DNA of 64,000 nt from a virus. Below, in pieces: positions 3,551 to 63,243 of the stretch (positions within the stretch are counted from its first letter, which is position 1; each line of letters starts with the position of its first letter). A model generated the notes under the pieces. It did not search any database and had not been told where the DNA came from. It saw only the letters and a list, made by a program, of their open reading frames with translations. Where the stretch lies: IMG/VR virus record IMGVR_UViG_3300021356_000010, positions 1 to 64,000 of that record, one strand, 5' to 3'. The translations under genes and the position numbers were made by a program.

Positions 3551-4351
3551 TTATCCGATCATATCCATTGGTGGGATTGCATACTTGCTGAGAACTTCGC
3601 TTTCGATTTTCTCAATTTCTGCTAGTGCGTCTGTGTATAATTCTCTTCCATTAAGAGTAACACCGCCAGGTAACTGAACATTGTTATACTTAATTAGATT
3701 CATACCCCACTGCTTCTTCATTAGAGCAGTAGCATATCTCTTGACAAACATATCATTATACATTTCAGTAGCATCGTTAGGATCAATCATCCTATGTGCT
3801 TCAATTAGCAGATACTTATCTTCTGCAAGGAAGTCAGCATCTACGTCAAGATATAAGCGATCACGACGCGCTGTAAATCTGAACTGCTGGAATGAACCAT
3901 TGTTCAGAACCATATCTAGTGTTTCTAGATATTGCTTGGTCATAAAGTAGTTGAGGATATCTAGTGATCCAAATGCATATAGATCATTCAGATACAATTG
4001 ATACTCAACGCCAAAGAGATTAGAACGGATTGAATTACTAACAAGACCAAATACTTTACTGATTCCAGTAACATGTGATGGAATAGGAATGTAGTTTGTT
4101 GCTTCATTCCAGTTAGTAGTTCCATTGCTGGTTGTTACTGTTGCTTTGAATCTAGCAATGTCATCTGCAGTTAGTGCGTGAGTTAGATAGCACCTCTCCA
4201 TGCCGTTGTAACAGTTCTCCTGAAAGAACTGAATGGTATCGTCGATAACGTTATTGACCTGCTCGTCATCAATATTAACTTGCAGGACAGGCTCACCCAA
4301 CTGCCTCTTACAGTATGTTATAAGATCAGTCCTTGAGTTTGGAGATGCCAT
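3551..4351 (-). CDS. 13: Neck protein, T4 gp13-like
   Basis: gp13 closes the filled head and binds gp14. The product is 266 aa from ATG 4351 and includes a CKRQLGEPVLQVNIDDEQV start region, a long mixed domain with FFQENCYNGMERCYL and a C-terminal part with VKRYATALMKKQWGMNL typical of T4-like gp13. A longer version starting at TTG 4360 is possible but would begin inside the terminator-like hairpin. ATG 4351 is preferred because AGAAGGGA lies about 14 nt upstream. That ribosome site is part of the hairpin stem described separately. It is followed one base later by gp14. Confidence 0.88.
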   Translation of the reverse strand: MASPNSRTDLITYCKRQLGEPVLQVNIDDEQVNNVIDDTIQFFQENCYNGMERCYLTHALTADDIARFKATVTTSNGTTNWNEATNYIPIPSHVTGISKVFGLVSNSIRSNLFGVEYQLYLNDLYAFGSLDILNYFMTKQYLETLDMVLNNGSFQQFRFTARRDRLYLDVDADFLAEDKYLLIEAHRMIDPNDATEMYNDMFVKRYATALMKKQWGMNLIKYNNVQLPGGVTLNGRELYTDALAEIEKIESEVLSKYAIPPMDMIG

Positions 4352-4360
4352 TACACACAA

Positions 4361-4400: not shown

Positions 4401-4592
4401 TTATTCAGTTGGTGCTTCTGCTGGAACGTCTGGGTCTGATTCACCTTCTAGAAGTCCTAGAGTCTCTAGACCACCCTCCAGTTTAATTTTATACTCTTTT
4501 GCTTTTTTCAGATTCTCTTCGAGTTCTCTGATCTGTTTGTCAGTAGAAGCTAGTTGCTCCTCAAAATTTTTCTTAAGTGTTTCTGAATCCAT
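4401..4592 (-). CDS. Small coiled-coil protein, 63 aa
   Basis: The product begins MDSETLKKNFEEQLASTDKQ and is almost wholly charged helix with heptad-like Leu/Ile spacing up to about residue 45, then an acidic Pro/Ala tail (DPDVPAEAPTE). I recognise similar short coiled-coil proteins with a L-x-G-x-L-x-x-L core in cyanophages, without a known function. It lies between the oxygenase cluster and gp13 and ends in a TAA that is part of ATAAATA. The hairpin that follows probably ends its transcript. Confidence 0.75.
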   Translation of the reverse strand: MDSETLKKNFEEQLASTDKQIRELEENLKKAKEYKIKLEGGLETLGLLEGESDPDVPAEAPTE

Positions 4593-4604
4593 GATTACCT
4601 CAAA

Positions 4605-5318
4605 TTAATAACGGTTACTTACATCAAATGCATGTTCGCATCTATTTCCATCTGCCAAAACATAATGGAAAAATGCCTGATGCCAAAAAGTGTCATCACG
4701 ACCACGTAAAATTCTACGCGCCCACAGTTTATATTTAGGTTCGTCTCTACCGTACTTAGAAGTCAATGGTGGTCTCCAGTGTGGTATCTCACAACCTTTG
4801 TATATGATAGCATCTCCAGGTGCTGTAGTGATCCAAGTTTCTCTTAATTCTGGATTCGAACTATCCACAATGAATGGCCATTCATATTCCCACTTTAGAT
4901 TTGTTTTGATCATAAGACTGACAGAAATTTCACACGCATCTCTATCAACATGTTTTTCCAATTCCTGTCCTAAGAAATAGAACCTATCGTAGTAGTAAGT
5001 ATTATATAATTTTTTACCTAATACTTGTTCTATTTCTAATCTAATTTTTGTATGTAGATCTTTATATGCTGGCCAATTATATCTGCTAGAAGAACCATCT
5101 ACCTGACCCTCATCATCTACGTGAGAATAATTATCTACACTACCATAATAAGTTCTAGATCCTCTCCATTCTGGAACATCACATTCCAGTTTAGTGGGAT
5201 CTGGAACTAAGTTAGGAAGAAAAAAGAAACCATTAGTATCAAATTTTTCATTCCTGGTTCTTAAAGTAGAACCTTTTGTTGGTATCAATTGACTATCTAA
5301 AGCTATCATTTCCATCAT
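4605..5318 (-). CDS. Putative 2OG-Fe(II) oxygenase, HVD type
   Basis: Start ATG 5318 is chosen because it forms an ATGA overlap with the previous stop and has GAGGTGG a few bases upstream; a longer frame from 5342 has no better signal. The 237-aa protein has QELEKHVDRDACEISVSLMI, giving a candidate H-x-D iron pair on a strand, and about 50 residues later PGDAIIYKGCEIPHWRPP, giving the distal His in the position usual for double-stranded beta-helix oxygenases. The distal Arg that binds 2-oxoglutarate is less clear here. It is the last of four adjacent oxygenase-like genes. Substrate unknown. Confidence 0.65.
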   Translation of the reverse strand: MMEMIALDSQLIPTKGSTLRTRNEKFDTNGFFFLPNLVPDPTKLECDVPEWRGSRTYYGSVDNYSHVDDEGQVDGSSSRYNWPAYKDLHTKIRLEIEQVLGKKLYNTYYYDRFYFLGQELEKHVDRDACEISVSLMIKTNLKWEYEWPFIVDSSNPELRETWITTAPGDAIIYKGCEIPHWRPPLTSKYGRDEPKYKLWARRILRGRDDTFWHQAFFHYVLADGNRCEHAFDVSNRY

Positions 5319-5944
5319 TTCCACCTCGGACCAACTACCCAACCAACAATAGATCTTCTAACACCAGAAGTAACTTTCAATACTCTATGTTGAGTTCTAG
5401 AATCAAATATAATTACAGTTCCTCTAGTTCTAGGAGCAAAATATGTTTTACCATTCTCATCTAGTAACTGAAGATTACCTCCTTCATAATCTGATGGATC
5501 TGATAATTGCATAACGATTGATAGTTTCCTGACATTTTCATACTCTGTATTAATCTTGTCAGAAATATACTGTTCTCCTGTAGTATCTTCTGTTTCGGGT
5601 TTGTACATATTGAGGAGACCATGATCAGTATGCCATTTATAAAATTGTCCCTCGGTATATTGAGTATATTGAATACTATTCATATCAATACAATCAATAT
5701 CGTACAGAAAATTTGATCGGTTAGCTAGCGAGACATAATGCCACAAAAATCCAGGTAACCAATGACCACTAGGAATCCAAGCATTACTAGAGTTCCTTGT
5801 TTTATTATCTACCTCCCCTTTATATAAACTAGAAACCTCCATGGAATCTCCAAACTCACTGAAGAGTTCTTCGTCTATAGTTTTTACTAATTTTTCAGGT
5901 AGTCCTGTAGAATACCAAACACTTTGGAATGCCATATCAAACAT
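5315..5944 (-). CDS. Putative prolyl-4-hydroxylase-type 2OG-Fe(II) oxygenase
   Basis: The 209-aa product shows the full signature: EGQFYKWHTDHG (H-x-D), the strand DPSDYEGGNLQLL, RGTVIIFDSRTQHRVLKV (distal His) and GVRRSIVGWVVGP (Arg for 2-oxoglutarate). These are P4H/PKHD-like features, so it should hydroxylate a protein or small molecule using O2, Fe(II) and 2-oxoglutarate. It is clearly paralogous to the gene at 60646-61266, sharing the ends GWVVGPRW. It overlaps the preceding gene by 8 nt; ATG 5935 is an alternative start one base after the previous stop. Substrate is not known. Confidence 0.82.
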   Translation of the reverse strand: MFDMAFQSVWYSTGLPEKLVKTIDEELFSEFGDSMEVSSLYKGEVDNKTRNSSNAWIPSGHWLPGFLWHYVSLANRSNFLYDIDCIDMNSIQYTQYTEGQFYKWHTDHGLLNMYKPETEDTTGEQYISDKINTEYENVRKLSIVMQLSDPSDYEGGNLQLLDENGKTYFAPRTRGTVIIFDSRTQHRVLKVTSGVRRSIVGWVVGPRWK

Positions 5945-6482
5945 TAATAGGATGTAAATTGAATGAAAGAATCAATCTTTCTTTATCACTTGTACATGGT
6001 GATGTGTAGTGATGAATAACTGACGGGAAGAAAATCATAGATCCACTTTTTATTTCTGATGGAGTATGCACTAATTGACATCCAACAAAAAAGTTATTGA
6101 AAGGTGACAGAAATCTTGTTGGAGTATGTTCATCTTCATCATAGTCTATGTACAAGACACAACTATATCCAACAGCACCATGATTGTGGATTTCATGGTG
6201 CATACCTTTTTTAGCTAACTCAAACCAATGTCCATTTGGAGCATAAGACATATTTGTTGCTTGAGAAAACAATCCTAATTCTTCTTTTAGGATATCTACA
6301 ATGTCTTCCCAATAAGATTCTTTACCTTCTCTAAAGTAATCAGTTAATACAGTATAAGATAAATCTTTATTTACCGATACTCTGTTGTAAAGATCTTTGA
6401 GTTTTTTCTTCTTGACTTCCCAGTCCCTAACTTCGTAATGGAATACAGGAACGGAGAAAATGGATTCTTGATAATCACTCAT
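5937..6482 (-). CDS. Putative 2OG-Fe(II) oxygenase, HxH subtype
   Basis: The 181-aa protein carries GMHHEIHNHGAVGYSCVLYI, where H-N-H stands at the usual H-x-D position, followed by SGSMIFFPSVIHHYTSP (distal His) and KERLILSFN (Arg). This arrangement matches the putative 2OG-Fe(II) oxygenase family PF13759, which is common in marine phages. It overlaps its neighbours by 4 nt and 8 nt, so it is translated as part of a tight oxygenase operon. The best guess is a hydroxylase of unknown target. Confidence 0.75.
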   Translation of the reverse strand: MSDYQESIFSVPVFHYEVRDWEVKKKKLKDLYNRVSVNKDLSYTVLTDYFREGKESYWEDIVDILKEELGLFSQATNMSYAPNGHWFELAKKGMHHEIHNHGAVGYSCVLYIDYDEDEHTPTRFLSPFNNFFVGCQLVHTPSEIKSGSMIFFPSVIHHYTSPCTSDKERLILSFNLHPINV

Positions 6483-7030
6483 GACAAACTAATATCAGAA
6501 TTAAATGATATAATTGTTTTTCTTTTATTTGATTCTACTTTTGGAGCAGAATGTACAATAAAAGAAGGGAAGGTTATAATGTCTCCCTCTTCAGTATCAA
6601 CATCAAATGTATCTGTATTATTTAGAGGACTGACAAAAACCGTTCTAGGACTTCCTTTTGGAAATTCTAGATAATAAACAGATGACCATTGACATTGTGT
6701 ATGTGTATGCCATTCATGAAAAGAATTTTTTTCATATTGCTGGAACCACATATTGATAATATTAACAGTTGGAAATCCTAGACTATTGAACAACTTAAAG
6801 TGATTCTCTTCGATATGAGGAAAAATAATATCTAGATATTTTCTTTCTGCTTCTTTGGGTAAGTTCCAATCACATTTACTGATCATGGTTTTTGTATATC
6901 CATGATCGTCTATACCAACATAAGAACTACACCCTGAAGAATCAATGAGACTTAAAATCTCATTCTTCAGGGTGTTGTGTTCTTTTAGTTTTGTTTTGTA
7001 TATTGGACAAGGAAGATCAAATACAAACAT
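6479..7030 (-). CDS. Putative 2OG-Fe(II) oxygenase, HxH subtype
   Basis: The 183-aa product includes KNSFHEWHTHTQCQWSSVYY (H-T-H at the metal site), EEGDIITFPSFIVHSAP (distal His) and KRKTIISFN (basic residue before the final strand). The layout is that of PF13759-type oxygenases and resembles its downstream neighbour, suggesting an old duplication. It is the first gene of the four-gene oxygenase block and follows the glycine-rich adhesin-like gene after 25 nt. Target unknown. Confidence 0.75.
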   Translation of the reverse strand: MFVFDLPCPIYKTKLKEHNTLKNEILSLIDSSGCSSYVGIDDHGYTKTMISKCDWNLPKEAERKYLDIIFPHIEENHFKLFNSLGFPTVNIINMWFQQYEKNSFHEWHTHTQCQWSSVYYLEFPKGSPRTVFVSPLNNTDTFDVDTEEGDIITFPSFIVHSAPKVESNKRKTIISFNSDISLS

Positions 7031-7055: not shown

Positions 7056-8027
7056 TCATGGATTCCAGGTAATAACAACTCGTCCTGCTTTTCCTGTATT
7101 TCCGTAACTACCTCTATCACCATCTCCACTATTTCCTGCGGTTGGACCATTGCCTTGCGACAATGATGGAGAAGAAATGTATGATGGATTGGTGTAACCA
7201 GATCCTCCGCCACCACCAAAGGCACCAGAGTCTCCTCCACCTTCTCCACCGCCGTAGCGACCGCCACCGCCACCACCAGATCCTTTGTCACCACCGTTGG
7301 CAGCGCCATATCCACCTTGATAGACGTTGCTTCCAATACCACTAGTTCCGCCTGGGTTTGCTGGTGGTCCAGTTCTACCCTGACCACCTCTTGTTCCAGA
7401 TCCAGGGTTTCCTCTTCTTCTGGGAGCAGCTCCGCCAGCACCTACGCCGTTTTGTGTTCCGCCACCACCACCTTGTGGTCTTCTAGGCTGACCATTAGTA
7501 CCGCCACCAGCACCACCAGGGCGACCAGCAGCACCGCCGCCACCACCGCCAATAATAACAGCAGTGTTACCCTGTCTGATGCCAGAAGCAGCACCACCAC
7601 CTGCACCATTTCTTCCACCAGATGGAGTTCCTCTACCACCAGCCCACACTCGATAAGTGGTTCCGCCATTCATTGTCATGTTGCCACCAGCAAAACCACC
7701 AGCGCCAGCATTGCCATCGACACCACCACCTGCTCCCCAAACTTTAATATTGACAGGAGTTGGTTGAGAAAAAGAAATGTTCCAAGATGATCCACCAGGA
7801 GAATTAATATTACCTGGGTTTAGATATAATTTTGGAGAAGTACTCAAGTCTCCAGGGGATCCTGGGGACAAACTAAAAGTTGCTGGTTGAGTAGCAGTAT
7901 AAGTTTCTCTCCAAGTTCCAGAGACATTGTTATTAACAGTATCAACTTGTCTCCAAGTTCCAGAAACATTGTTCCAGAGTTCTTGAATCTCTCTCCAAGT
8001 GCCAGAAACGTTATTAAAAATACTCAT
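7056..8027 (-). CDS. Glycine-rich tail fibre / adhesin-like protein
   Basis: The 323-aa product starts with three copies of a short repeat, NNVSGTWRE / NNVSGTWRQ / NNVSGTWRE, within the first 45 residues. From about residue 90 it becomes extremely Gly-rich, with runs such as IIGGGGGGAAGRPGGAGGG and clusters of GxG, and ends with GKAGRVVITWNP. Such Gly-rich domains are known from gp38-type receptor-binding tips of T-even phages, where they form polyglycine helices, and from other phage fibre tips. The position after the fibre genes supports a role in host adsorption. A direct gp38 match cannot be claimed. Long open frames in other phases here are composition shadows. Confidence 0.7.
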   Translation of the reverse strand: MSIFNNVSGTWREIQELWNNVSGTWRQVDTVNNNVSGTWRETYTATQPATFSLSPGSPGDLSTSPKLYLNPGNINSPGGSSWNISFSQPTPVNIKVWGAGGGVDGNAGAGGFAGGNMTMNGGTTYRVWAGGRGTPSGGRNGAGGGAASGIRQGNTAVIIGGGGGGAAGRPGGAGGGTNGQPRRPQGGGGGTQNGVGAGGAAPRRRGNPGSGTRGGQGRTGPPANPGGTSGIGSNVYQGGYGAANGGDKGSGGGGGGRYGGGEGGGDSGAFGGGGGSGYTNPSYISSPSLSQGNGPTAGNSGDGDRGSYGNTGKAGRVVITWNP

Positions 8028-8035
8028 GATTTGTA

Positions 8036-8737
8036 CTAAACGTAATAATTTGATTCTGCTGGTTTAGATGGCCAGATAGCATCATCTTCTACTCTTGTGG
8101 TAGGACCATCAATTGTAGTAATGTCGGTAATTGTTGATGGGAAATCTCTCAAAGCTTGACGATAAGTTTTTACTTCTTCTGAGATTGTTCTCCCGTCCTC
8201 AAGACCCTTAAGAAGAATAACATCAGATTCTTGCAATCTTCTGTTTCTATGTTCTCTTACAGCAGACCAAGTTGATTCTTTCTTGATTGCTAATTCTTCT
8301 GGGGTTAGATCTACAACAGTGTAGGTCTTTGTCATAACCATATTGACTCTATCAACTGTCCATTCAGAAATATCATTCTCTTCGCAAGTTTTATCAAATG
8401 CTAAAACTGATGGATATGATGCTTCTCTTATTTGAAACACATCATACTTTACTGTTACAGTAGTAGAAGTACCAATCCATTGCGAAAGATCTGTTCTTTC
8501 AATAATATGATTGGCATCATCAACTTCACTAGGATAGTTGTCAATTAATCTACGATAACCTTCATTCTTCAGAAGATAATCATCATCTACTAAAGCTTGA
8601 TTCTCGTATGTCCAACCAGGGTGTCTCTTTTCTTCACCGTCTGGTGTTAGATAGGATTTTGTGCGCTGAGCTTCGTTATATTCTTCTGTTGGAGATGGAA
8701 GAACTTCAGGCATCCAGTAAGTCTTTTCTTCTGACAT
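8036..8737 (-). CDS. Tail fibre / tail assembly chaperone-like protein
   Basis: The 233-aa protein ends with a domain that reads AVREHRNRRLQESDVILLKG ... EEVKTYRQALRDFPSTI, the signature of the phage tail assembly chaperone family (PF16778): R-x-x-R-L-x-x-S-D and Y-R-Q-x-L-R-D-x-P. The N-terminal two thirds are acidic and specific to this phage. Such proteins often follow fibre genes and help their folding or attachment. It is 8 nt upstream of the Gly-rich protein and 10 nt downstream of a short fibre gene. Confidence 0.75.
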   Translation of the reverse strand: MSEEKTYWMPEVLPSPTEEYNEAQRTKSYLTPDGEEKRHPGWTYENQALVDDDYLLKNEGYRRLIDNYPSEVDDANHIIERTDLSQWIGTSTTVTVKYDVFQIREASYPSVLAFDKTCEENDISEWTVDRVNMVMTKTYTVVDLTPEELAIKKESTWSAVREHRNRRLQESDVILLKGLEDGRTISEEVKTYRQALRDFPSTITDITTIDGPTTRVEDDAIWPSKPAESNYYV

Positions 8738-8747
8738 GTTCCTTTAA

Positions 8748-9164
8748 TTAGTATTTGTACCAAATATCACCGTTGCTTCCACCAGATGGGTTACCAGTAG
8801 AAACTGTTTTAGCACCCCATCCATTGGAATAGGCACCTGAAGTCGGATTGACTGCAATGTTTGAAGAACCATTAAAAGATACACCGTTAATGTTTCTAGC
8901 AGTGGAAAGTGTAGCAGCACTACCAACACTTAGACTACTAATGTTAGTCCATGAAGGAGTGCTTCCACCAACCAAAACCTGTGAGCTACCACCAACACTC
9001 AGTTTTGCAGTAGTATCCGCAGCGGATTGGTATAGTAACTGTCCAGCAGATCCACCTGTAATATTATTTGCTGAACTAATTCCGCCTCCAACGAAAGCTC
9101 CGTTGGAAACATATGTTACTCCTGCAGTTGTCTGCAAAGTATCACACTTTAGAATACTTGCCAT
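8748..9164 (-). CDS. Short tail fibre-like protein
   Basis: The 138-aa product has Gly/Ser-rich beta repeats and the segment LSTARNINGVSFNGSSNIAV, which fits the phage tail fibre repeat PF03406 (A-R-x-I-x-G-x-x-F-x-G-S-x-x-I). It ends with SNGDIWYKY, a common last strand of phage fibre proteins. It is preceded by two late-promoter-like motifs between 9187 and 9203. It may be an accessory tip of the fibre encoded upstream, or a split-off C-terminal part of such a fibre. Confidence 0.75.
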   Translation of the reverse strand: MASILKCDTLQTTAGVTYVSNGAFVGGGISSANNITGGSAGQLLYQSAADTTAKLSVGGSSQVLVGGSTPSWTNISSLSVGSAATLSTARNINGVSFNGSSNIAVNPTSGAYSNGWGAKTVSTGNPSGGSNGDIWYKY

Positions 9165-9186: not shown

Positions 9187-9203
9187 TATTTATATTTATT
9201 TAG
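9187..9203 (-). promoter_or_regulatory. Tandem late promoter motifs CTAAATA and TATAAATA
   Basis: On the minus strand CTAAATA (9197-9203) is followed by TATAAATA (9187-9194), 23 nt before ATG 9164. The TAA stop of the 2929-aa fibre gene is the TAA within the first motif. Confidence 0.65.
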
Positions 9204-12200
9204 ATGATCGACCATGCAGCACCATCTAGGATGGTGACTACTGTGTTGCCAGTCAATTCAATTGGTCCAGCAGACATACAGTTTGTGTTTGCAGGAACGG
9301 TGACGTTTTCTGCAACTGTGTTTCTGTTTGCCTTCATGACACCGTAGGTATCAATATACTGTCTGTCACCCATCACTCTCATAGCGTTGTCGTTATTGTT
9401 ATTGGATGCACTTGCGGTGGTAGTTCCGAAGGAAGCACCAACGAAGTTAGAAGATCCATTAACATGTAGTTGATAATCAGGATCTGCCTGATTAACACCA
9501 ACTCTAGATAGTCTATAGATGTGTCCGCCAGTCGTGCTATCAGTCCATTTAGAAGTAACGAATGGAGAACCATTAGCATATAGAGTTCCGTTGAGGTTGA
9601 AGTTACCATCAACATTCAACTGCATGTCGATACCATTAACTGTGGTAGTTGTGGTATTAATAGAAACTCTGTTTGTATCACCATCGATTGCAATAGCAGG
9701 TGTAGCATTCCAGGTTGTTCCACCATTAGCAGTTGATGCTTGGATGGAGAAGATATCATCGCCAATTAATTGGTTGCCAATTCTAAAGTTTCTAAAGGAA
9801 GATGAACCGAGGAAATTGACACCGACACCTGAATTATCATTTGCACTGTCTAGAGTTAGATTTGATCTAATACGAGCAGCAGCATTTACATCTAAACGAT
9901 AATTAGAATCTGGATTGTTTGTTCCGATACCAACTGTACCATCATGCTTGATGGTCATTCTCTCAACATTATTTGTTCCGAAGTGCAGTGCATCTTCACT
10001 CATATTGACGATTGCACAACTACTATTGTTTCCAGAAGTAGAGAAATGATAAGCACTATTGAGGGTATTGTCGCTATTGCTTATCAATAATCCCCAAGCA
10101 CTGTTGCTACTGTGTGCTATATTAACTTGGTTATAATTACCACCTTTAATACCAACAACATCACCTGCACCAGAACCACCAATATCAAATGTTCTAGCAG
10201 GAGTGCCAGAGTTAATACCAACTCTATTTGTTGATGCATCTACAAAGAATGTATTTGTATCAACAATCAGATCTCCAGCAATTGTTGTGTCGCCAGTTAG
10301 AGTAGATGTTCCAGATACGCTTAGGTTAGATCCAGCACCAGTTAGAGTTAGCGAACCAGTCATGGTGTCGCCTGCTTTCAATACGTTTAGAGAAGCAGCA
10401 CCAGTTACGTTACCAGTGATAGCTCCAACAGCAATATCTCCATTAGCATCACGAAGAACAGCAGTGTTTGGAACATTGGTTGTTTGGAATTGAATGTTAC
10501 CTGAGTTCCAGATCTGGTTACCGTTGATGGTCATTCCATCGGCATTAACAACCTGAACGTTCAGAGTTCCAGATCCGTCAGTTCCATTGCCACCAGAAGC
10601 AATCATTGCAACGTTGTAGTTTGCTGCTAACTGAGAACTATTGAAATAGATTCCAGGTGCAGAAGAAACACCGTCCTTTCTTCCTAGTCTTAGGTTAGCT
10701 GTTCCACTATCACTTTCTAGTACAGCAACATCAATGGTGTTACCGTCTTCAATAGAGAAGTCTTGGAATGGAACTCTATTGCTTGCAGATCCAATAGTTT
10801 CTGCACCAATGAAATTACCAGTTGTTAATCTACCAACGATAATTGTATAATCATTAAAGTTATCAACAGTATCGTCATTGACGATAAGATTATCAATCGT
10901 GATTTCACCTACATTCTGAGAATTGCTATTATACAGATTGACAGAGTTGCCAGGAGTAAATGGTGTAGATCCCAGAACTAAACCACTAACATAAATTTGA
11001 TATCTTGGATCTCCATTGAATGATTTAATTGTTAGATCATCGCGGATAGATGATGCACTGATAAATCTTGGAAGTCTTTCATCAGATAGAGTTCCGTAAT
11101 TGACATTCAGAGCATTCTGATACCAGATGCCTTGGCGGTTGTCTAGTTTATCAGCGTCAAGATCAGATCCAGGACCATCATTGAGAGAACTCCAGATCTT
11201 ACCCCAAGAACCAAAAGCGGTGAGACCAGTTCCAGAACCACGGAGGTACATGTTGTCATTATCAGTGAATGCAAGTTGTCTTACACCACCGAAGGAAGCA
11301 TCAAATCCAGATCCACCATTTCTGATGGTCATTACAAGGTTCTTGCTTCCACCATCATTGAGACCATTAGCACTGTTGTTAATCGTATTAGCAATAATAC
11401 CTTCAACAAAGTTATTAGGAGATGGGTTTGATGTTGGGTTGTTTGTACCAGTAATCAAACGAATAGTGTTTGCAGAAGAACCCGAGATACTAATATTGTA
11501 AGTACCAGATAGTCTATCAGTTGGTAAAGTTCCAGAGTTTTGGTTAGTTGAGTTTAGATAGAACGCACCTTGAGCACCATCGAGGAGGTCAGCATCTAGA
11601 CCACTATCAGCACCAGTTTTCAGTGTGACAGAACCGTTACCTTCTGTGCCAATATCAAACTGAGACTTCTTAAATCTAGCAACACCAATTGTACCGAAGA
11701 GGTCTGCACTGACCGTTAGATCAGTAACTCTCTGAACATCAATAGCAACATTTGCATATTGCTTATTAACTGTGGAAATTTTTGCTGCTAATACTGCATT
11801 GGATCCTGCACCAATGGTAGCAGTTGGCAGTGTAGTAATATTGAAGTCTGCGGTAAATCCAACACCACCATCAGTAACAACAATATCGCTGATTGCATTG
11901 TTTGCTACTGTAATGTTTGCTCTTAAACCAGTTCCAGTACCACCAAGTAATTGCTGGTCAAAGTATTGACCGTTTGTAAATCCAGAACCACCACTAGCAA
12001 TTACGATAGAATCTACAAATCCACCTTGCGTGTATGAAGACTCAAATGTGATAGGAGATGATCCTCTATCGAATTCAATAACTGTACCAACTGGAATTGT
12101 TGATGTTAGAGTATTACTTAGTGAAATAGTTGTAAATCCACCAGACGTTAATACTCCATCAATGTTAGTATTCGCTTGAATACCTGTTACATTAGCAACT

Positions 12201-15200
12201 ACTTCATGTCCAACTAATACATCCGAATTGGTTGTAAATTGTAGTTCGGAACTTCCAGAAGAAGCTTGAGAACTTAGTTTTGCAAAATATCTAGTCTCTG
12301 TGCTCTTTACAGATTGTACTGCCAGTGCCCAGTTTTGATCTCCACGTAAGAATGTGAATGAGTTTGCAGTTCCTCCAGTAGCAATAACGTTTGCTGGGAT
12401 CGGACCACCAATAAGGGTAGAACCGTCGATAGTGCTGGAAGTTAGTGATACCCAGTTGTTACTATCAAATGATGATGTATTGACAACTCTGGTAAGATTA
12501 ACAGTTACTGCTGGGATATCACTGGATTCAATAGTATCGGTATCAGTAATAGCAATGTTATTGACAATATCGCCATACAATCTGCTTTCAATTAATGCGA
12601 CACCTGTTGCCTGTGTTCCAGATCCAGCAGGAGCAGAGAACGTTACTGTTGGAGCAGTTGTGTATCCTTTTCCTCCTTTATAACCATTGAATTCGACAAT
12701 AGTTACAGTTACAACTTCTCCATTTGCAATGGTACTAGTTGCTGCAGCAGATACTCCACCTTGCTGGGGATTACCACCAGCAATTGTTACTGTAGGTGGA
12801 GAGGTGTAACCAGAACCACCATCGGTAATATTGATGGTATGAACTACACCTTGTCTATATTCAGTTGCTTGAACTCTTCCTTGAGATATGCTGCCAAGGA
12901 AAATATCGCCAATTGTAAATTGGATAGTTGGATCAACACCAAATGCAAGGAACAAACTATCCAAGTCATTGTTAAGAATGAATGATGTAGTTGTGTCTTG
13001 CTGAATAGCAATGTCACCAGCGAGTGCTCCTTCGATAGAAGTTCTTTCTTGCTGGTCTGCAACAGTATAAACTTCAAATGGTCTTAGTGCTGGAATTTGG
13101 TCGATAGAAATCTTACCCGAATCGGTAAGTTCAACCAGTGCTCTAGGAACAGCATTTGTAGAGTATGGTTTGTTGATGTAAGGACCAAGGTTGTTAGTGA
13201 TATAGTCCTTAACTGCCTTTTGAGTAGGTAGTTTAGAGTCAGTAGCATTAGCACCACCAAGTGTGTTAGATGCATCGAAACCAGTAACAACAACGTCGCC
13301 ACCCTTCAGTTTCAAGAATTCAACTTCAGAGATAGTAACCGTGCCAGTAAAGGTGATAGCACCAGTTCTGTTTTCAATCTGAGCAAAAGTACCAACTTTG
13401 AAGTCACCTAGTTCGTCAGTACCAGAGACATATACACGACCATAGTCCTCAGAGACTTGCTCGTTTGCCTCTACTTTAGTACCACCGTTTTCAGGTAGTG
13501 CTAAGTAGTTAGTACCAGAACCTGCAAATTCCCAAGTGTGGGAAGAACTATTAACAATAGATGGTCTGTGAAGTCTGATGGTTTCTCCAAGAAGAGAAGC
13601 AGCAGTTTGAGGAGTTCCATCACTGTCTCTGATGACGCTATATGGTTGTCCAGTTCCATCGTCGATGGTGATCGTAGCAGAGAAAGGAGGACCAACTGTA
13701 ACACCAGATACTTCGTCGATGAAGTATTCTACTGTGCTTGATGTATTACTATGACCATCAACTTTAACAACATAGTGCTCTAGTGGTTCTCTTCCTAAAT
13801 TATCAACAGTAAAGATAGTTCTTCCAGTTGGAGTTGCAGAAACATTAACAATAGTACCAACGTCAAATGAATATGCCTCTCTTCTAAATCCTCTACCACG
13901 TAGAGCAAACTGACCAAAGTTTGTAGCGGAGTTTGTAACTGATGCATAACCACCAGACTCAGCAAGAATACCATCAGCACAGAAGATAACGAAGACCGAA
14001 ACTAACTGAGTGTAACCATCTTCAATAATTTTATATCCTGTACCACCAAAGGAGACGATGGTGAATGCAGATGCAACCATCGACTTACCCTGATTGGGGA
14101 AGGTTGCAGAACCATCAAGTTCTAGACCAGGGAAAGGACAGTTGGGTTGCTTAACTTTAGAACCATCAACTAGAGCACCACTACCACCTAAGAACGAAAT
14201 GATAGAAGAGTTCTGAGTATATGGCGATGCCTCAATGATTGGATAATCATCAAAGTCACCACGAATTGCCATCCTTTGATTGTTAGCATCATAGATGTAA
14301 CTATCTGGATATGTAATTACATTTGTAGTGTCAAATAATGTTCCTGTAGTCTTAGTAGTAGTTCCTGGTTCGATTGCAGTTCCACTAGCAGGATCCTCTG
14401 CATACTCTAGAATGCCATCTAGAATACCCATAGAAGTTGTGATAGATGCTTCTACGTTTGCACAAAGAGGATTGCCTAGAGGATCTGCTAGAATAGTTGC
14501 ATCAACAAACTGTGGAATTGGAGAAGATGTGGTTACAGCAGCGCCAGCACCATCTTTCCATCCACGCATCGCTGCGATAGCAAGATCTCTTACTTGAGTA
14601 TATGCATATCTGGTCTCTTCTATTTGAGATGCATCAATACCAGTCAGTGCAGTTCCTGTGAAGTATGTTTCTGCATTAGTTACAATTCCAGAGTTTCCTC
14701 CAAGAACAAGGTCTCTAATTAGACCACCTAGAATATAATTAATATCTCTACGGCACTTTCTTTGATGAATATCAGACAGTCCTAGAGAAGGGAACTGTGC
14801 CTCAGTATTGATAAGTGCTTGATCTGCAATCAGATCTCTGTTTCTAGCAATTAGATATGCAGCATCTAGATATGTGCCAGAAGCATCGTTAGCGATAACA
14901 TCAACATATAGATATGCAAGAGTATCGATAGCAGATCTTACATCATCACACGCAGGAGTTCCAGCAGTTGCTGTAATAACACTGTCGTCAAAATATCTTG
15001 GTACGCTAGAATATACTGGGGTATATGCTGGATTGCCTGGAGTTCCATCTCCAGTTCTCCAGTTTCTCATTGCAAGGATTGCTAGTTCTCTAGCATATTC
15101 AATTGCACGTACAGTCTGTATAATCTCATTTTCAATGTAAGCAATCTTAGCACCAACAATATACTTCTGTGCTGCTTCAATAATGTTATGGTTAGAACCA

Positions 15201-17989
15201 AATTCAAGGTCTCTTACAATGGCGTTGATAAAATGTCTTACATCTTGACGACACTGTTCATCACCATTAGTTTCGCTGTTTGTTACAGTAGGAGAACTGT
15301 ATGATGGATAGACTTTAGTTCCTGCCTCACAAGAAATTTCAAGACCTGCTAGTTGTACAGTATCGTCTTCTGAAAGATTTAGTGATACATCAGTAGTTAC
15401 TGTTGCTACTCCAGTTACTGCTGTGTCATAAACAAAATTAGTTACATTAGCAGTAACTCCACCGAAAGTTGCAGTACCAGTTGGATTTGCACTATCATAA
15501 GTATTTGCATGATCTAGTGTTCCTAGGAAAATATCAAAGGAAGTTCCACTTACATTATAAACAGAATAGTATTCTTTCTTGAATTGATCATTAATTCTTC
15601 CTACAACTTCATCCGCAATAAAATCTCTGTTGTTGCGTAAGAATACACAAGCATCTTGGAATCTTCTTTCTACTGGAGTAGAAAGACTGAAATTATTTGG
15701 TGAGTTTAGTAGTGTTAGTGTAACTGACTTGGAGTAAGATTTTACAACCGCTGTTTGTCCAGGATCAAAGTTTGAATCATTAATTGTTGGAGCTTTCTTT
15801 GGAATTACAAATCTTCTAGAACGACCATCAGCATCTTCTAGAACTTTGTAAATTCTTTGTTTGCCCATCAGGAAAGATAGGTCTGGATTTAGAGTAGGCA
15901 ATCCAGAGATTTCAATTTCTTGACCTTCTTTGAAGTCGTGAATGTTGTCTCTACCAACTAGTTGGTTTGTATAGAATACAATACCACCAAGATCTTCTGC
16001 ATTACCAAACTGAGCATTTTGGAAACCACCAGTTGCGATACTTGGATCTCCCTGTAGAGAGAAATCAATTCTCTGAATGGGAAGAGTAGAAGTTACATCT
16101 TCATCTACAGAAACAACTTCACCCTCTGCTCTAATTGATTTAATGGAGGTACTATCAAAAGACTCTGTTACGATAGCAGCCTGGAAAATATTGATAGATG
16201 CTGCTTGATTAGTTTCCCAAGAAGGTGAGTTGAGAATAGGTACAACTGTTACTTCATAACTAGTTGGAGCATTGGTATCATCAATAGTTGCAACTTCGTA
16301 GAATCCTTGAGTAAAGTTAGCATCTGCAGTATCATCTAGAAAGATATAACTTCCTGGAATAATGCTATCACCAGTAGGATTTGTCGAAAAGATCAGTGTG
16401 TTTGTTCCAGCAGTTGCTGTGATTGTTTGTGTATTGATCTGACTTCCTTGAGAACCAGAAACAATATAGTCAAATCTCTCACCTTCTACGAAAGAACCAC
16501 TAGTTAGAAGAACATCTACACTACCATTAATGTACGCTGATGCTCCAGTAGTTGTATCAAAAACAACATTACTAATTTTTGCTCTAGCACCAGTATTGAC
16601 ACCAACTACTTCTAAACCACTGGTAAGTGCTGATAGACCAGTGTTTTGCTGGAAATCGACATTGAATTTGTCTGGTCCAAAAATTTGATGACCAATTGGG
16701 AAATCTACACCAAAGTCTCCATTGACTTCATTGTCGATGACAACTCTTTGCTTGTCATCAAATACCATTGCAAAGTCCCAAGTTGCAACAGAGTCACCAT
16801 TTGAATCAATTTGATCGCGGAAGGTAACACCAATAACATAGTTTTTATCACCAAACTTGACCATGTGTTTGCCAGGATTGGCAGGTCTCATGATGACGAG
16901 ACGTAAGTTGTCACCTACAATGGAACAATCAGGTGGTAGAGAAATTGGGTTATCTTCTACGTAGTCACCACCAGAAACAATCAGTGTTTCTTTTACGCCA
17001 GGAGTTGACCATGCCAACTGTGCCGCTTTCTTAATTGTGCGAACAGGATTGACAGCAGAACGACCATCGTTTTGGTCGGAACCAATCTGTTGAGAAACAT
17101 AGATACGACCACCAACGTCATTCGTTGCTAGATTGAGGACGTATTCTGTAGTTGCAATCTTATCAGATCTGTCACCAAGTACAGGTGTAATAGATCTTGG
17201 ATATACACCAGATTCTCCTGTTGTTCCATATCCAAACGCTTCATTATCATCTACTCTAAAACCAATATGCTTTAGTGTAGCAGTACCATTGACCACTTCG
17301 CCATCAGTATGGGTTGGAGCATCTGCTCCAGTAGTACCAGAAACTGTTACTTGATAAATATTTGATCCAAAATATCTGTATGAATCTTTCTGTAAGAAAA
17401 CACTTGCAGACCAAAGAGTTCCTGTAGCGTTAGCGTAGGTTTTTAAGTTTGGAGCTCTGTGATTTAGATCAGGACTAATTAGATTATCAACATCTAGGTT
17501 GAGAATTCTTGCAGTATCAGAAATGATAGAAGTAGAAGTTCTGATAGCACCAGAAATATCTAATTCAAAATCAACCGTATCGAGTGTTGCTGTAGCAGCA
17601 GCACCTACACCACCACCTCCAGAAAATGTTACTGTTGGTGCAGAAGTATATCCACTTCCTGGATTATTAACAGCAATTGTAGTTACTTCACCATTGAAGA
17701 TGAAAGCAGAAGCAAGAGCTTGAACTCCACCAGATGCTGGGGGAGAAATATTTACGGAAGGTGCGCTAGTATATCCAGAACCGCCAGCGGTGATTTTAAT
17801 CGTATCAACTCTTTGCCCAGTTCTATTGATACCAACACGAGGCAATCCAGTATTGCTATCAAGTTGAGCACGAAGGATTTCTTTTTCTAACGAGCCTGTA
17901 CCCGATCGAATGGTAAGTTCGTTATCACCGATGAGTTTGGGTTGAGAACCTCTTACAAACTCTTTATCGGAATTGATATTAAAACTCAT
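9200..17989 (-). CDS. Giant tail fibre-like virion protein, 2929 aa
   Basis: Domains read from the sequence: two GGSGYTSAPSVNI-type beta repeats near residues 30-130; a segment around residues 290-400 starting IYVSQQIGSDQNDGRSA and TIKKAAQLAW, which looks like the entry of a right-handed beta-helix; a helical region at roughly 760-1180 with three related modules (pattern RN-R-D-x-I-A-D ... R-D-L-x-x-G-G/S-N ... AxxAMRxW); more GGSGYT repeats near 1730-2060; and a fibre-like C-terminal half with short repeats such as LKAGDTMTGSLTLTG. It ends TVVTILDGAAWSII, as many cyanophage fibres do. It is likely a long fibre or baseplate-attached adhesin and may contain glycan-binding or depolymerase activity, which cannot be shown here. 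A late promoter lies 35 nt upstream. Confidence 0.8.
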   Translation of the reverse strand: MSFNINSDKEFVRGSQPKLIGDNELTIRSGTGSLEKEILRAQLDSNTGLPRVGINRTGQRVDTIKITAGGSGYTSAPSVNISPPASGGVQALASAFIFNGEVTTIAVNNPGSGYTSAPTVTFSGGGGVGAAATATLDTVDFELDISGAIRTSTSIISDTARILNLDVDNLISPDLNHRAPNLKTYANATGTLWSASVFLQKDSYRYFGSNIYQVTVSGTTGADAPTHTDGEVVNGTATLKHIGFRVDDNEAFGYGTTGESGVYPRSITPVLGDRSDKIATTEYVLNLATNDVGGRIYVSQQIGSDQNDGRSAVNPVRTIKKAAQLAWSTPGVKETLIVSGGDYVEDNPISLPPDCSIVGDNLRLVIMRPANPGKHMVKFGDKNYVIGVTFRDQIDSNGDSVATWDFAMVFDDKQRVVIDNEVNGDFGVDFPIGHQIFGPDKFNVDFQQNTGLSALTSGLEVVGVNTGARAKISNVVFDTTTGASAYINGSVDVLLTSGSFVEGERFDYIVSGSQGSQINTQTITATAGTNTLIFSTNPTGDSIIPGSYIFLDDTADANFTQGFYEVATIDDTNAPTSYEVTVVPILNSPSWETNQAASINIFQAAIVTESFDSTSIKSIRAEGEVVSVDEDVTSTLPIQRIDFSLQGDPSIATGGFQNAQFGNAEDLGGIVFYTNQLVGRDNIHDFKEGQEIEISGLPTLNPDLSFLMGKQRIYKVLEDADGRSRRFVIPKKAPTINDSNFDPGQTAVVKSYSKSVTLTLLNSPNNFSLSTPVERRFQDACVFLRNNRDFIADEVVGRINDQFKKEYYSVYNVSGTSFDIFLGTLDHANTYDSANPTGTATFGGVTANVTNFVYDTAVTGVATVTTDVSLNLSEDDTVQLAGLEISCEAGTKVYPSYSSPTVTNSETNGDEQCRQDVRHFINAIVRDLEFGSNHNIIEAAQKYIVGAKIAYIENEIIQTVRAIEYARELAILAMRNWRTGDGTPGNPAYTPVYSSVPRYFDDSVITATAGTPACDDVRSAIDTLAYLYVDVIANDASGTYLDAAYLIARNRDLIADQALINTEAQFPSLGLSDIHQRKCRRDINYILGGLIRDLVLGGNSGIVTNAETYFTGTALTGIDASQIEETRYAYTQVRDLAIAAMRGWKDGAGAAVTTSSPIPQFVDATILADPLGNPLCANVEASITTSMGILDGILEYAEDPASGTAIEPGTTTKTTGTLFDTTNVITYPDSYIYDANNQRMAIRGDFDDYPIIEASPYTQNSSIISFLGGSGALVDGSKVKQPNCPFPGLELDGSATFPNQGKSMVASAFTIVSFGGTGYKIIEDGYTQLVSVFVIFCADGILAESGGYASVTNSATNFGQFALRGRGFRREAYSFDVGTIVNVSATPTGRTIFTVDNLGREPLEHYVVKVDGHSNTSSTVEYFIDEVSGVTVGPPFSATITIDDGTGQPYSVIRDSDGTPQTAASLLGETIRLHRPSIVNSSSHTWEFAGSGTNYLALPENGGTKVEANEQVSEDYGRVYVSGTDELGDFKVGTFAQIENRTGAITFTGTVTISEVEFLKLKGGDVVVTGFDASNTLGGANATDSKLPTQKAVKDYITNNLGPYINKPYSTNAVPRALVELTDSGKISIDQIPALRPFEVYTVADQQERTSIEGALAGDIAIQQDTTTSFILNNDLDSLFLAFGVDPTIQFTIGDIFLGSISQGRVQATEYRQGVVHTINITDGGSGYTSPPTVTIAGGNPQQGGVSAAATSTIANGEVVTVTIVEFNGYKGGKGYTTAPTVTFSAPAGSGTQATGVALIESRLYGDIVNNIAITDTDTIESSDIPAVTVNLTRVVNTSSFDSNNWVSLTSSTIDGSTLIGGPIPANVIATGGTANSFTFLRGDQNWALAVQSVKSTETRYFAKLSSQASSGSSELQFTTNSDVLVGHEVVANVTGIQANTNIDGVLTSGGFTTISLSNTLTSTIPVGTVIEFDRGSSPITFESSYTQGGFVDSIVIASGGSGFTNGQYFDQQLLGGTGTGLRANITVANNAISDIVVTDGGVGFTADFNITTLPTATIGAGSNAVLAAKISTVNKQYANVAIDVQRVTDLTVSADLFGTIGVARFKKSQFDIGTEGNGSVTLKTGADSGLDADLLDGAQGAFYLNSTNQNSGTLPTDRLSGTYNISISGSSANTIRLITGTNNPTSNPSPNNFVEGIIANTINNSANGLNDGGSKNLVMTIRNGGSGFDASFGGVRQLAFTDNDNMYLRGSGTGLTAFGSWGKIWSSLNDGPGSDLDADKLDNRQGIWYQNALNVNYGTLSDERLPRFISASSIRDDLTIKSFNGDPRYQIYVSGLVLGSTPFTPGNSVNLYNSNSQNVGEITIDNLIVNDDTVDNFNDYTIIVGRLTTGNFIGAETIGSASNRVPFQDFSIEDGNTIDVAVLESDSGTANLRLGRKDGVSSAPGIYFNSSQLAANYNVAMIASGGNGTDGSGTLNVQVVNADGMTINGNQIWNSGNIQFQTTNVPNTAVLRDANGDIAVGAITGNVTGAASLNVLKAGDTMTGSLTLTGAGSNLSVSGTSTLTGDTTIAGDLIVDTNTFFVDASTNRVGINSGTPARTFDIGGSGAGDVVGIKGGNYNQVNIAHSSNSAWGLLISNSDNTLNSAYHFSTSGNNSSCAIVNMSEDALHFGTNNVERMTIKHDGTVGIGTNNPDSNYRLDVNAAARIRSNLTLDSANDNSGVGVNFLGSSSFRNFRIGNQLIGDDIFSIQASTANGGTTWNATPAIAIDGDTNRVSINTTTTTVNGIDMQLNVDGNFNLNGTLYANGSPFVTSKWTDSTTGGHIYRLSRVGVNQADPDYQLHVNGSSNFVGASFGTTTASASNNNNDNAMRVMGDRQYIDTYGVMKANRNTVAENVTVPANTNCMSAGPIELTGNTVVTILDGAAWSII

Positions 17990-51966: not shown

Positions 51967-52147
51967 GTTCTTTCTTCACTGTCTGATAGTATAGTTTATA
52001 GTATTTGTTCTTCATCTCTGTTAGTATAGCATTATCTTCATCAAATGCCATGTATTTTGTTAATTGGTATGATCCTTCTAGTTCTGATAGTAAGCGTAGT
52101 ATGTTAGTTGATGATGGTTTTAGTCCGCCATGTGAGTATTGTGACAT
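51944..52147 (-). CDS. Small hypothetical protein, 67 aa
   Basis: The product begins MSQYSHGGLKPSSTNILRLL, with a basic Tyr/Lys-rich C-terminal half (KNKYYKLYYQTVKKERDQPT). It overlaps the oxygenase gene by 28 nt and the zinc-ribbon gene by 23 nt. Not recognised. Confidence 0.6.
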   Translation of the reverse strand: MSQYSHGGLKPSSTNILRLLSELEGSYQLTKYMAFDEDNAILTEMKNKYYKLYYQTVKKERDQPTHK

Positions 52148-60643: not shown

Positions 60644-60649
60644 TGTCAA
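60621..60649 (-). promoter_or_regulatory. Sigma70-like promoter TTGACA-17-TATGGT
   Basis: TTGACA (60644-60649) and TATGGT (60621-60626) are 17 nt apart, upstream of ATG 60598 (DUF4385 gene). The -35 box contains the TGA stop of the oxygenase gene at 60646 (GCT TGA CA), as at 55179-55184. Confidence 0.7.
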
Positions 60650-61266
60650 GCCCATCTAGGACCAACGACCCATCCAACCAGTGACCTTCTACATCCAGAC
60701 TTGACTTTTCTCACTCTGTGCATTGTTCTAGCATCAAAGACAATCATTCTACCTCTTGCCTTTGGAGCAGTCATTAATTTACCAGCATCCAAAAACTGTA
60801 ACTCGCCACCATCATAATCATTAGGACCAGACAGTTGCAATGAGAATGCTAACTTTCTCACATACTCATGCTCTACAAACGATTCATTAGATGATTGGTT
60901 GTACTTAGAACTAGGAACAAAGTTTGGAGTAAATTCTGTATAGAGGTGCTGATCTGGATGCCAGTGATAGAACTGACCCTTATTGTACTCAGTATATTGA
61001 ATCATCTCAGTATCAAAAGACGTTATGTTGAATCTAAAGTTACGTCTATTTGCTGCTTGAATCCAATACCAGATCATTGGTCCAACCCAAACATCAGTTG
61101 GAATATAAGAAACCAATGAATCTCTTTGAGTATTAAGATGCCCTACCTCTCCATCTGGTTTGAATACAGTGCCGTCTTTGACAGGATAATCATGTGCTAA
61201 TTTTATAATCTCACTAACTACCACATCAGGTAGTTTTGTATCAAATTCAACTGCAAAGTCTGCCAT
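60646..61266 (-). CDS. Putative prolyl-4-hydroxylase-type 2OG-Fe(II) oxygenase
   Basis: The 206-aa product carries KGQFYHWHPDQHLY (H-x-D), GPNDYDGGELQFLD, RGRMIVFDARTMHRVRKV (distal His) and GCRRSLVGWVVGPRW (Arg). It is a paralogue of the gene at 5315-5944, with the same end GWVVGPRW and the same D-Y-x-G-G-x-L-Q-x-L-D strand. It overlaps the 266-aa gene by one base. Substrate unknown; hydroxylation of a virion or host protein is a reasonable guess. Confidence 0.85.
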   Translation of the reverse strand: MADFAVEFDTKLPDVVVSEIIKLAHDYPVKDGTVFKPDGEVGHLNTQRDSLVSYIPTDVWVGPMIWYWIQAANRRNFRFNITSFDTEMIQYTEYNKGQFYHWHPDQHLYTEFTPNFVPSSKYNQSSNESFVEHEYVRKLAFSLQLSGPNDYDGGELQFLDAGKLMTAPKARGRMIVFDARTMHRVRKVKSGCRRSLVGWVVGPRWA

Positions 61267-62066: not shown

Positions 62067-62068
62067 TG

Positions 62069-62587
62069 TTATACTAGCTCCAGTTTCCAGGCTACAGTCT
62101 TACGCAATCCGCCAAATGTTCTTGTAGGTTCTTCAGCAAAGTGTTTGATTTGACCAGGGAAATATACTGCTTTATTTATTTCTGGGGTGACCCAAACTGG
62201 TCCATTGTCAAACAAGAAGCATGTCTTACCATTCCATCGAACATCCCATGCACCATTAGCATACCACAATAGAGTTCTTGCTTTTTCATCAAATCCATCT
62301 ACATGTGGTTGCCCACCTAATCCATATGTCTGACCATTAGCATAAACTGATATCACTTTAAAGTCATCACCAGTTGCTTTACGTATTGGTTCAAGTAAAG
62401 TCTCTGTAAAGAGTTTATCTCTTCCAAGTTGCATTATCCAAAATGGTGGAGCATTTATATTACCTGATCCAGAGACATGTCCATATCTCCACTGTGGTCT
62501 TTCCAAGAAAACTTTAATAGATTCGCAATGCTCTTCAGAAAACATATTTCTAAAGATACGAATATCATCTGGACTAAAATTGTGCAT
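62069..62587 (-). CDS. Putative 2OG-Fe(II) oxygenase, HVD type
   Basis: The 172-aa product reads YGLGGQPHVDGFDEKARTLL (H-x-D followed by a strand), DVRWNGKTCFLFDN, AVYFPGQIKHFAEEP (distal His) and GLRKTVAWKLEL (basic residue on the last strand). The fold and spacing fit a prolyl-4-hydroxylase-like oxygenase. The N-terminus has FRNMFSEEHCESIKVFLERP, as in P4H-like proteins. It overlaps the upstream oxygenase gene by 14 nt. Confidence 0.82.
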   Translation of the reverse strand: MHNFSPDDIRIFRNMFSEEHCESIKVFLERPQWRYGHVSGSGNINAPPFWIMQLGRDKLFTETLLEPIRKATGDDFKVISVYANGQTYGLGGQPHVDGFDEKARTLLWYANGAWDVRWNGKTCFLFDNGPVWVTPEINKAVYFPGQIKHFAEEPTRTFGGLRKTVAWKLELV

Positions 62588-63227
62588 ATTCTCGTATCAA
62601 TTGATATCTTGTCCTTTCAAGATCAGCAACAAGCTCCACGTCTCTAAGTTTATCATAGTTTTTGATAATTGTCATTGAATAGTCATTGACAATCTCTCTA
62701 ATTCTACTATCAGAAATCACTGACTCCATCCACAATACCATGACCCTTCTCTCACCAGAAGTAACTTCATTGACTTTGTGATAGACACCAGTTGGATATG
62801 CTACACAAGATCCTGCAGGTAGTTTGTATTCAATTTCTTTGCCACCAACATTCAATACCAACTCTCCTCCCTCATATTCATCTGGATCATTGAGAAAGAG
62901 CGACAGACTATAATCTGTTCTCACTTCATTCATGCAATAAAAATCATTATGATATTTGTAATGCATACCCTCTGTATATCTGAGAAACATAGGGATAGTA
63001 GTAGCTCTAGGAACTAGAACGTAATTCAATTGTTCAGACTTTTTTATCTGACTATCAGCATACTCACACAACCTAGGACCATGAACAGAATCTTGTATCT
63101 GTTCATTCCATTTTATAGACTTGTCATCAGAACCAGTGACAGACCCATCCACAAAGTCACAGATTTTGTAGTATTCATTTATGGTATCAAGTTGGGTTTC
63201 GCTTAAAACTTTAATAGTATAGATCAT
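62574..63227 (-). CDS. Putative PKHD-type 2OG-Fe(II) oxygenase
   Basis: The 217-aa product begins MIYTIKVLSETQLDTINEYY and contains EGMHYKYHNDFYCMNEVRTD (H-N-D), SLSLFLNDPDEYEGGELVLN, LPAGSCVAYPTGVYHKVNEV (distal His) and SGERRVMVLWMESVI (Arg). This is the PiuC/YbiX-type PKHD hydroxylase pattern, with length close to that family. It follows the tail-chaperone-like gene by 16 nt and is the first oxygenase of the right-hand cluster. Confidence 0.88.
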   Translation of the reverse strand: MIYTIKVLSETQLDTINEYYKICDFVDGSVTGSDDKSIKWNEQIQDSVHGPRLCEYADSQIKKSEQLNYVLVPRATTIPMFLRYTEGMHYKYHNDFYCMNEVRTDYSLSLFLNDPDEYEGGELVLNVGGKEIEYKLPAGSCVAYPTGVYHKVNEVTSGERRVMVLWMESVISDSRIREIVNDYSMTIIKNYDKLRDVELVADLERTRYQLIREYAQF

Positions 63228-63243
63228 TATAATGTCAATAAGT

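Follow-up and report, generated by a model that had tools for sequence, protein, structure and literature searches.

Four putative 2-oxoglutarate oxygenase genes beside the fibre genes of a cyanophage-type myovirus, one from a family labelled ferrochelatase

The window considered here is the 64,000-nucleotide stretch at positions 1 to 64,000 of IMG/VR virus record IMGVR_UViG_3300021356_000010, part of an 81,720-base record of T4-like cyanophage type, from a cyanophage-type myovirus whose neck-gene end has ~75-79% DNA identity to Synechococcus phages among the blastn matches listed. On its minus strand, between fibre genes and neck genes, lie four overlapping genes, P4, P3, P2 and P1, and it is near-certain from profile matches or predicted folds that all four encode 2-oxoglutarate (2OG)-Fe(II) oxygenases. 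P1 is, by its modelled fold, a member of an unrecognised 2OG-oxygenase family that public resources label ferrochelatase. From the position of the genes and from relatives of P1 in lasso-peptide clusters, we propose, at a probability of roughly one half, that the four products form a coupled set of peptidyl hydroxylases whose target is the neighbouring Gly-rich adhesin or fibre. The block consists of:

6479..7030, minus strand: P4, 183 aa, PF13759-type 2OG-Fe(II) oxygenase, H108-T-H110...H160 (PF13759 47.0 bits, cut-off 27; phrog_81 E 6.6e-35)
5937..6482, minus strand: P3, 181 aa, PF13759-type 2OG-Fe(II) oxygenase, H99-N-H101...H158 (PF13759 38.6 bits)
5315..5944, minus strand: P2, 209 aa, PF13640/PKHD-like 2OG-Fe(II) oxygenase, H105-T-D107...H186...R196 (PF13640 56.8 bits)
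4605..5342, minus strand: P1, 245 aa from TTG 5342, phrog_2954 family, H131-V-D133...H188-W-R190 (phrog_2954 E 6.4e-53, motif, fold models)

For P1, neither Pfam (E<=1) nor NCBIfam (E<=0.1) yields a match; its place in the 2OG superfamily comes from predicted fold and motif, and it is assigned to no named family. H131, D133, H188 and R190 are invariant in an alignment of 19 sequences (19/19), and the H-x-D...H-x-R pattern is invariant again in 45/45 aligned family sequences; the Arg lies at +2 from the distal His (HWR), and a near-invariant H-Q follows at +14/+15 in a compact member. Structure prediction for a double-stranded beta-helix with His/Asp/His residues, a check proposed in the first-pass annotation, was run for this family. 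A 176-aa relative, 35% identical to P1, was modelled from the 45-row alignment with high confidence (predicted local distance difference test, pLDDT, 96.5; predicted template modelling score, pTM, 0.91) as a prolyl-hydroxylase-like double-stranded beta-helix carrying the invariant HxD...H. Among the best 50 Foldseek matches of this family model, 49 bear the name of a 2OG-type or putative oxygenase, the remaining one being the uncharacterised 2rg4. The best is the P. putida prolyl hydroxylase (E 2e-8), matched also in its EF-Tu complex 4iw3, and other top matches include HygX, a Dictyostelium PHD and the chlorovirus collagen prolyl hydroxylase 5c5t (rank 11). Z scores are 16.6 to SnoN and 6n1f (169 residues, 3.1 A), 16.1 to P4H and 15.7 to P3H1. 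The closest solved folds of the family include prolyl hydroxylases (P. putida P4H, PHD2/EGLN, P3H1, PBCV-1 vCPH), but identity is only ~10-16%, and P1 differs in its H-W-R at the distal His and in having no basic residue at the usual place ~10 positions on. The fold matches listed for a model of the window's own P1 are likewise 2OG-type enzymes or unnamed PF13759-type proteins. By sequence alone, P1 finds only weak matches in the PDB, and a P1-P2 profile comparison aligns the HxD region weakly (E 3.8e-4, probability 36%).

A ferrochelatase fold consists of two alpha/beta domains. P1 was considered as a ferrochelatase and rejected: it has no such Pfam or NCBIfam match, and the 176-residue family member models confidently as an oxygenase beta-helix, a different fold; nor does any ferrochelatase occur among the best 50 Foldseek matches of either P1 model. 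The label is nevertheless widespread, being attached to phrog_2954, the family of P1, in PHROGs, in RefSeq products and in three papers. In the accessible text of these papers, Table 3 of PMC3037559 lists GC615 as a 'ferrochetalase domain' protein, PMC11561400 treats 'ferrochelatases' (phrog2954) as seasonally enriched marine auxiliary metabolic genes, and PMC9599517 reports a 2OG gene next to each phage 'ferrochelatase'. Taken at face value, the labels imply an enzyme that provides the adjacent oxygenases with haem or iron, a role to which we attach almost no credence; a simpler reading of the pairing in PMC9599517 is that both genes are oxygenases. phrog_3531, which is also labelled ferrochelatase, itself reads as P1 plus a 2OG domain by sequence comparison: P1 matches its positions 55-152, P2 its positions 290-362, and the first half of the S-SCSM1 protein gp124, described below, its positions 10-181.

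The other three genes match Pfam families above curated cut-offs, P2 being assigned to PF13640 and P3 and P4 to PF13759. The first-pass annotation had read metal motifs of the H-V-D, H-T-D, H-N-H and H-T-H types in the block and at least two subfamilies. The motifs are indeed seen in P1, P2, P3 and P4, respectively, and the subfamilies number three (PF13759 twice, PF13640 and the phrog_2954 family). Among NCBIfam families, P2 comes closest to the PKHD/YbiX group (PRK05467 family, 54.6 bits against a cut-off of 143, E 1e-14), and TIGR02466 is the closest family for P3 and P4, again below cut-offs. P2 has the HxD...H metal motif with R196 as the basic residue at +10 from the distal His, H186; over 21 sequences, D107 and R196 are invariant and H105 and H186 are conserved at 90% or more. 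In PF13759-type sequences the pattern is H-x-H...H (31/31), with Arg or Lys at +11 from the distal His in 29/31. By P3/P4 profile, the PF13759-type structures 2rg4 and 3bvc are matched (E 3.6e-19 and 7.6e-19) with the H-x-H aligned; these uncharacterised proteins from Oceanicola and Roseovarius share the three-His motif, and a sequence search of the PDB with P4 returned weak matches only. P3 is, as judged by sequence, a diverged paralogue of P4; their 33% identity over 93 residues rules out a recent duplication.

The four minus-strand open reading frames (ORFs) at 4605-7030 overlap one another, as first described. An ATGA start-stop overlap is the usual sign of translational coupling, and it joins P4 to P3 (6482-6479) and P2 to P1 (5318-5315), while P3 and P2 overlap by 8 bases; the best reading is that P4-P3-P2-P1 is a translationally coupled operon. 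Since the second ATGA falls at 5318-5315, P1 probably starts at ATG 5318 (237 aa) and not at TTG 5342 (245 aa). The order on the minus strand is a 2929-aa putative fibre ORF, a 138-aa fibre-like gene, a PF16778 chaperone, a Gly-rich gene of 323 aa, P4, P3, P2, P1, a 63-aa gene, gp13 and gp14, which bears out a placement after adhesin-like and chaperone-like genes and before the neck genes. The neighbours are:

9200..17989, minus strand: 2929-aa putative fibre/structural protein, upstream of the cassette (ORF)
8748..9164, minus strand: 138-aa tail-fibre-like protein, kept in the cassette (ORF, PHROGs, cassette comparison)
8036..8737, minus strand: tail-fibre assembly chaperone (PF16778 / phrog_4912)
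7056..8027, minus strand: Gly-rich adhesin-like protein, 323 aa, proposed substrate (ORF and composition)
4401..4592, minus strand: 63-aa phrog_580 protein between block and neck genes (E 2e-19)
3551..4360, minus strand: gp13-type neck protein, head-tail adaptor Ad2 (phrog_211 E 1.7e-45; blastn match to S-RSM4 gp13)

The exact four-gene order, together with fibre, chaperone and adhesin, recurs in two viral contigs, L063 and L050, whose proteins are 48-66% (four oxygenases), 58-59% (chaperone), 70-72% (Gly-rich protein), 86-88% (gp13) and 86-95% (gp15) identical to those of the window. In L063 the block (48-66% identity) has diverged faster than the neck genes (80-95%) and to a similar degree as the chaperone (58%).

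It had been thought that single genes of this kind are usual in cyanophages and a block of four striking, a view that did not survive comparison. Seventeen marine phage genomes, chosen for matching P1-P4 and not for fibre position (G000, a fragment with no PF21722 match, was left out), carry 195 2OG genes by the PF13640, PF13759 and phrog_2954 profiles, 5-19 each; these counts are lower bounds, as matches below cut-off were dropped and phrog_274-type genes omitted. Adjacent blocks occur in S-SM2, Bellamy, HTVC008M, P-RSM4 and S-SCSM1. The Synechococcus phages S-SM2 (SSM2_035-038) and Bellamy (genes 45-48) each have four 2OG genes in a row, and the Pelagibacter phage HTVC008M has five (gp068-gp072), directly before gp13 as in the window. 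In these three phages the families and the side of the fibre genes are the same as in the window, whereas gene order and count differ. A longer run, interrupted by one unmatched gene, occurs in contig L102. As to the differences in order, the S-SM2 run begins with PF13640 and then phrog_2954, and the HTVC008M block is transcribed against the neck genes. Across 41 non-redundant viral P1 loci the median is four 2OG genes within 6 kb. These blocks and contig counts rule out the four-gene block as a rarity; the window holds an ordinary form of a widespread arrangement.

Within that arrangement P1 and P2 are tightly paired. A same-strand 2OG gene lies within 150 bp of P1 at 40 of the 41 loci and is of P2 type at 39, a count that covers 41 of 43 loci (phage records L001 and L002 were left out) and uses profiles partly built from these loci. 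In S-SCSM1 the two are joined in gp124, a 453-aa protein of which one half belongs to phrog_2954 and the other to PF13640. Because the two are almost always adjacent and sometimes form one polypeptide, we regard P1 and P2 as an obligate pair.

P1-type genes also lie close to Gly-rich genes. In eight of the nine phage records that hold both, phrog_2954 is within 5 kb of PF21722 (Gly_rich_2), as are eight of ten genes; circular shifts gave a mean of 0.72, and none of 20,000 reached the observed value. The family is present in 12 of the 17 records, eight of which were read for surrounding annotation (S-CAM8, ACG-2014g, S-RIM50 and Mosig contribute profile positions alone), and a fibre, structural, sericin-like or Gly-rich gene stands beside it in seven of those eight. 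The association on viral contigs is weaker and suggestive only: a Gly-rich ORF occurs at 14 of 43 non-redundant P1 loci, including phage records L001 and L002, compared with 4 of 25 methyltransferase control loci, and at 14/30 compared with 3/18 where the flank is at least 6 kb. The positives are, judged by eye, nearly all cyanophage-like, and the control list comprises 76 of 80 loci, L152-L155 being excluded as entries of the same identity and length as L151.

Bacterial relatives of P1 provide the best hint, by analogy, that the family acts on peptides. A pattern scan of an 84,980-species genome collection returned two, L220, in a phage-like stretch of an alphaproteobacterial single cell, and L221, on a Mucilaginibacter contig. 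Read by eye, L220 2442-7568 looks podovirus-like, with several consecutive 2OG-like genes and then a collar-like gene. L221 has two PF13640 genes, the P1 relative and a PqqD-type chaperone in succession; its cluster further includes a lasso protease of B2 type, which scores 63.2 bits against a cut-off of 33, a cyclase of Asn-synthetase type, which at 383 bits falls short of its cut-off of 525, and HprK-like and JmjC genes. The gene is present in 4 of 399 genomes sampled from the family of L221. In G344 the cluster is repeated at 50-81% identity (P1 relative 71%), with a further 2OG-like gene, recognised by motif only and without an NCBIfam match, that makes four in a row. Two of the four bacterial relatives thus lie in lasso-peptide clusters, where the P1 relative adjoins two and three further 2OG genes, respectively, as well as peptide-processing genes. 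This is where the likeness to the phage loci ends, since a lasso protease or cyclase was found only beside the bacterial relatives in G001 and G344 and not among the scanned phage neighbours, the precursor peptide not having been sought. In the accessible part of PMC8498205, CanE of the lasso peptide canucin A is a 2OG enzyme that hydroxylates an Asp of the precursor peptide, an earlier example of a 2OG hydroxylase that tailors a lasso peptide.

Given this analogy, the substrate of the block is likely a peptide. The first-pass annotation had suggested that the enzymes may hydroxylate fibre or host proteins, and do so stepwise; the fibre part has gained from the fibre-side position across phages and from the relatives in lasso-peptide clusters, and a host target is kept as a lesser rival. 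We infer that each oxygenase would use O2 and 2OG, yield succinate and CO2 and hydroxylate a residue of some polypeptide, with the neighbouring Gly-rich adhesin and fibre as the most likely substrates. The paired P2 and P1 would depend on each other, working either as partners or one after the other. The Gly-rich protein (30% Gly, with three NNVSGTWR repeats) has no Pfam match and only weak PHROGs matches of unknown function; since it is richer in Asn (8.7%) and Pro (6.5%) than in Asp (2.2%) and Lys (1.2%), Pro or Asn would be favoured as target residues. Such hydroxylation may affect the stability or the receptor fit of the fibre tip.

Several observations weigh against this proposal. P3 and P4 have three His in place of two His and a carboxylate; the three-His site is common to the PF13759 sequences compared, and the two remain members of PF13759, but canonical chemistry is less sure. 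P1 lacks the usual 2OG-binding Arg or Lys ~10 residues after the distal His, and the model of the window P1 itself is of moderate quality only (pLDDT 58.9, pTM 0.63; best Z 10.8). Other 2OG genes are within 5 kb of Gly_rich_2 in only 23 of 140 cases (shift mean 8.9; 35 of 20,000 shifts). P-RSM4-like genomes may share inherited synteny, and because of shared ancestry the eight of nine records represent fewer than eight independent events. In P-SSM7, P1 stands alone among replication genes, between dam and gp62, with no other 2OG gene there. Most presumed pelagiphage contigs of podovirus type, a designation judged from gene content and not from formal classification, have no nearby Gly-rich ORF, although L102 has collar and fibre genes. 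With regard to the bacterial relatives, in G016 the lasso cyclase-like gene is ~4 kb off on the other strand and the B2 gene ~10 kb off, and in G123 the B2 gene and the P1 relative lie on separate contigs.

At a second fibre locus of the same genome, a tail chaperone is surrounded by three PF13640 genes and one FlmC-like gene; S-H9-1 is similar. Across window 60646-64000 and contig L059 1-5481, 2OG genes stand on both sides of the tail assembly chaperone (phrog_4697) and adjoin a 1229-aa Collar/Gly-rich short-fibre protein. Features of this locus are:

60646..61266, minus strand: PF13640 gene, 43% identical to P2
62069..62587, minus strand: 172-aa H-V-D...H...R protein with the phrog_274 'endonuclease V' label (FlmC-type 2OG oxygenase match E 5e-13)
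62574..63227, minus strand: PF13640 2OG oxygenase (52.1 bits)

Between these genes, a 266-aa protein at 61266-62066 has no Pfam, PHROGs or NCBIfam match. phrog_274 and phrog_2297 show weak matches to other 2OG genes as well, and their DNA-enzyme labels look wrong too on sequence grounds. Away from the fibre genes, at 52120-52740, is a lone PF13759 gene (72 bits). Elsewhere, P-RSM4 has a Nol-like carbamoyltransferase gene between its Gly-rich gene and 2OG pair (L138 3652-5316), and a gene for tryptophan halogenase is found within the 2OG block of Sf-CH11 (L137 5112-6668) and near that of HTVC008M (L136 13764-14001), which raises the question of halogenated fibres.

It is possible that the enzymes hydroxylate host proteins or surface molecules, such as EF-Tu or an outer-membrane receptor, rather than the virion. 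The closest solved fold of the P1 family, the P. putida prolyl hydroxylase found also in the EF-Tu complex 4iw3, would fit such a role, as would the P1 of P-SSM7, which is away from the fibres. However, a host target predicts neither the position on the fibre or adhesin side across phages nor the coupling within a structural-gene strand, and we consider it unlikely. A metabolic function, in which the genes draw on 2OG, make succinate or exploit the host nitrogen-stress signal (the model of Sullivan et al. 2010), appears improbable. It was proposed for cyanophage 2OG genes in the accessible text of PMC3037559 and agrees with the high copy number of 5-19 per genome, but it leaves the presence of diverged subfamilies in one operon, the fibre-side position, the P1-P2 pairing and the lasso-cluster relatives unexplained.

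More doubtful still is nucleic-acid modification or repair, in the manner of AlkB or of enzymes making hypermodified bases. These belong to the same superfamily, phrog_274 and phrog_2297, which resemble the block's genes, are labelled as DNA enzymes, and the P1 of P-SSM7 adjoins dam and gp62. Yet most of the nearest solved folds are hydroxylases of peptidyl-proline, amino acids or natural products, a 2OG motif and an FlmC match are seen in the 'endonuclease V' gene, and the genes are placed in structural modules. Hydroxylation of the neighbouring adhesin or fibre by a coupled set of enzymes remains our preferred proposal.

The block itself adds one more example to an arrangement already known; what seems new is the assignment of P1 to the 2OG superfamily, its fusion with P2 and the connection to lasso clusters, none of which we found in the accessible text of the open-licence PubMed Central literature, where we likewise found no correction of the ferrochelatase label and no account of phage 2OG enzymes that hydroxylate fibres. 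With the P1 result, the name that PHROGs, RefSeq and three papers give to this family is corrected. Cyanophages and pelagiphages have many 2OG oxygenases per genome without a known substrate, and the lasso-cluster relatives together with the fibre-side position lead to a testable claim, namely that the virion adhesin is hydroxylated. Tentatively, and with less confidence than we place in the reading of the window's own block, it is appealing to propose a fibre-finishing assembly line in marine tailed phages, in which coupled peptidyl hydroxylases of the same stock as lasso-tailoring enzymes would multiply hydroxylate Gly-rich adhesins before assembly. If so, the seasonal marine 'ferrochelatase' auxiliary metabolic genes would be genes for the maturation of host recognition and not for haem metabolism.

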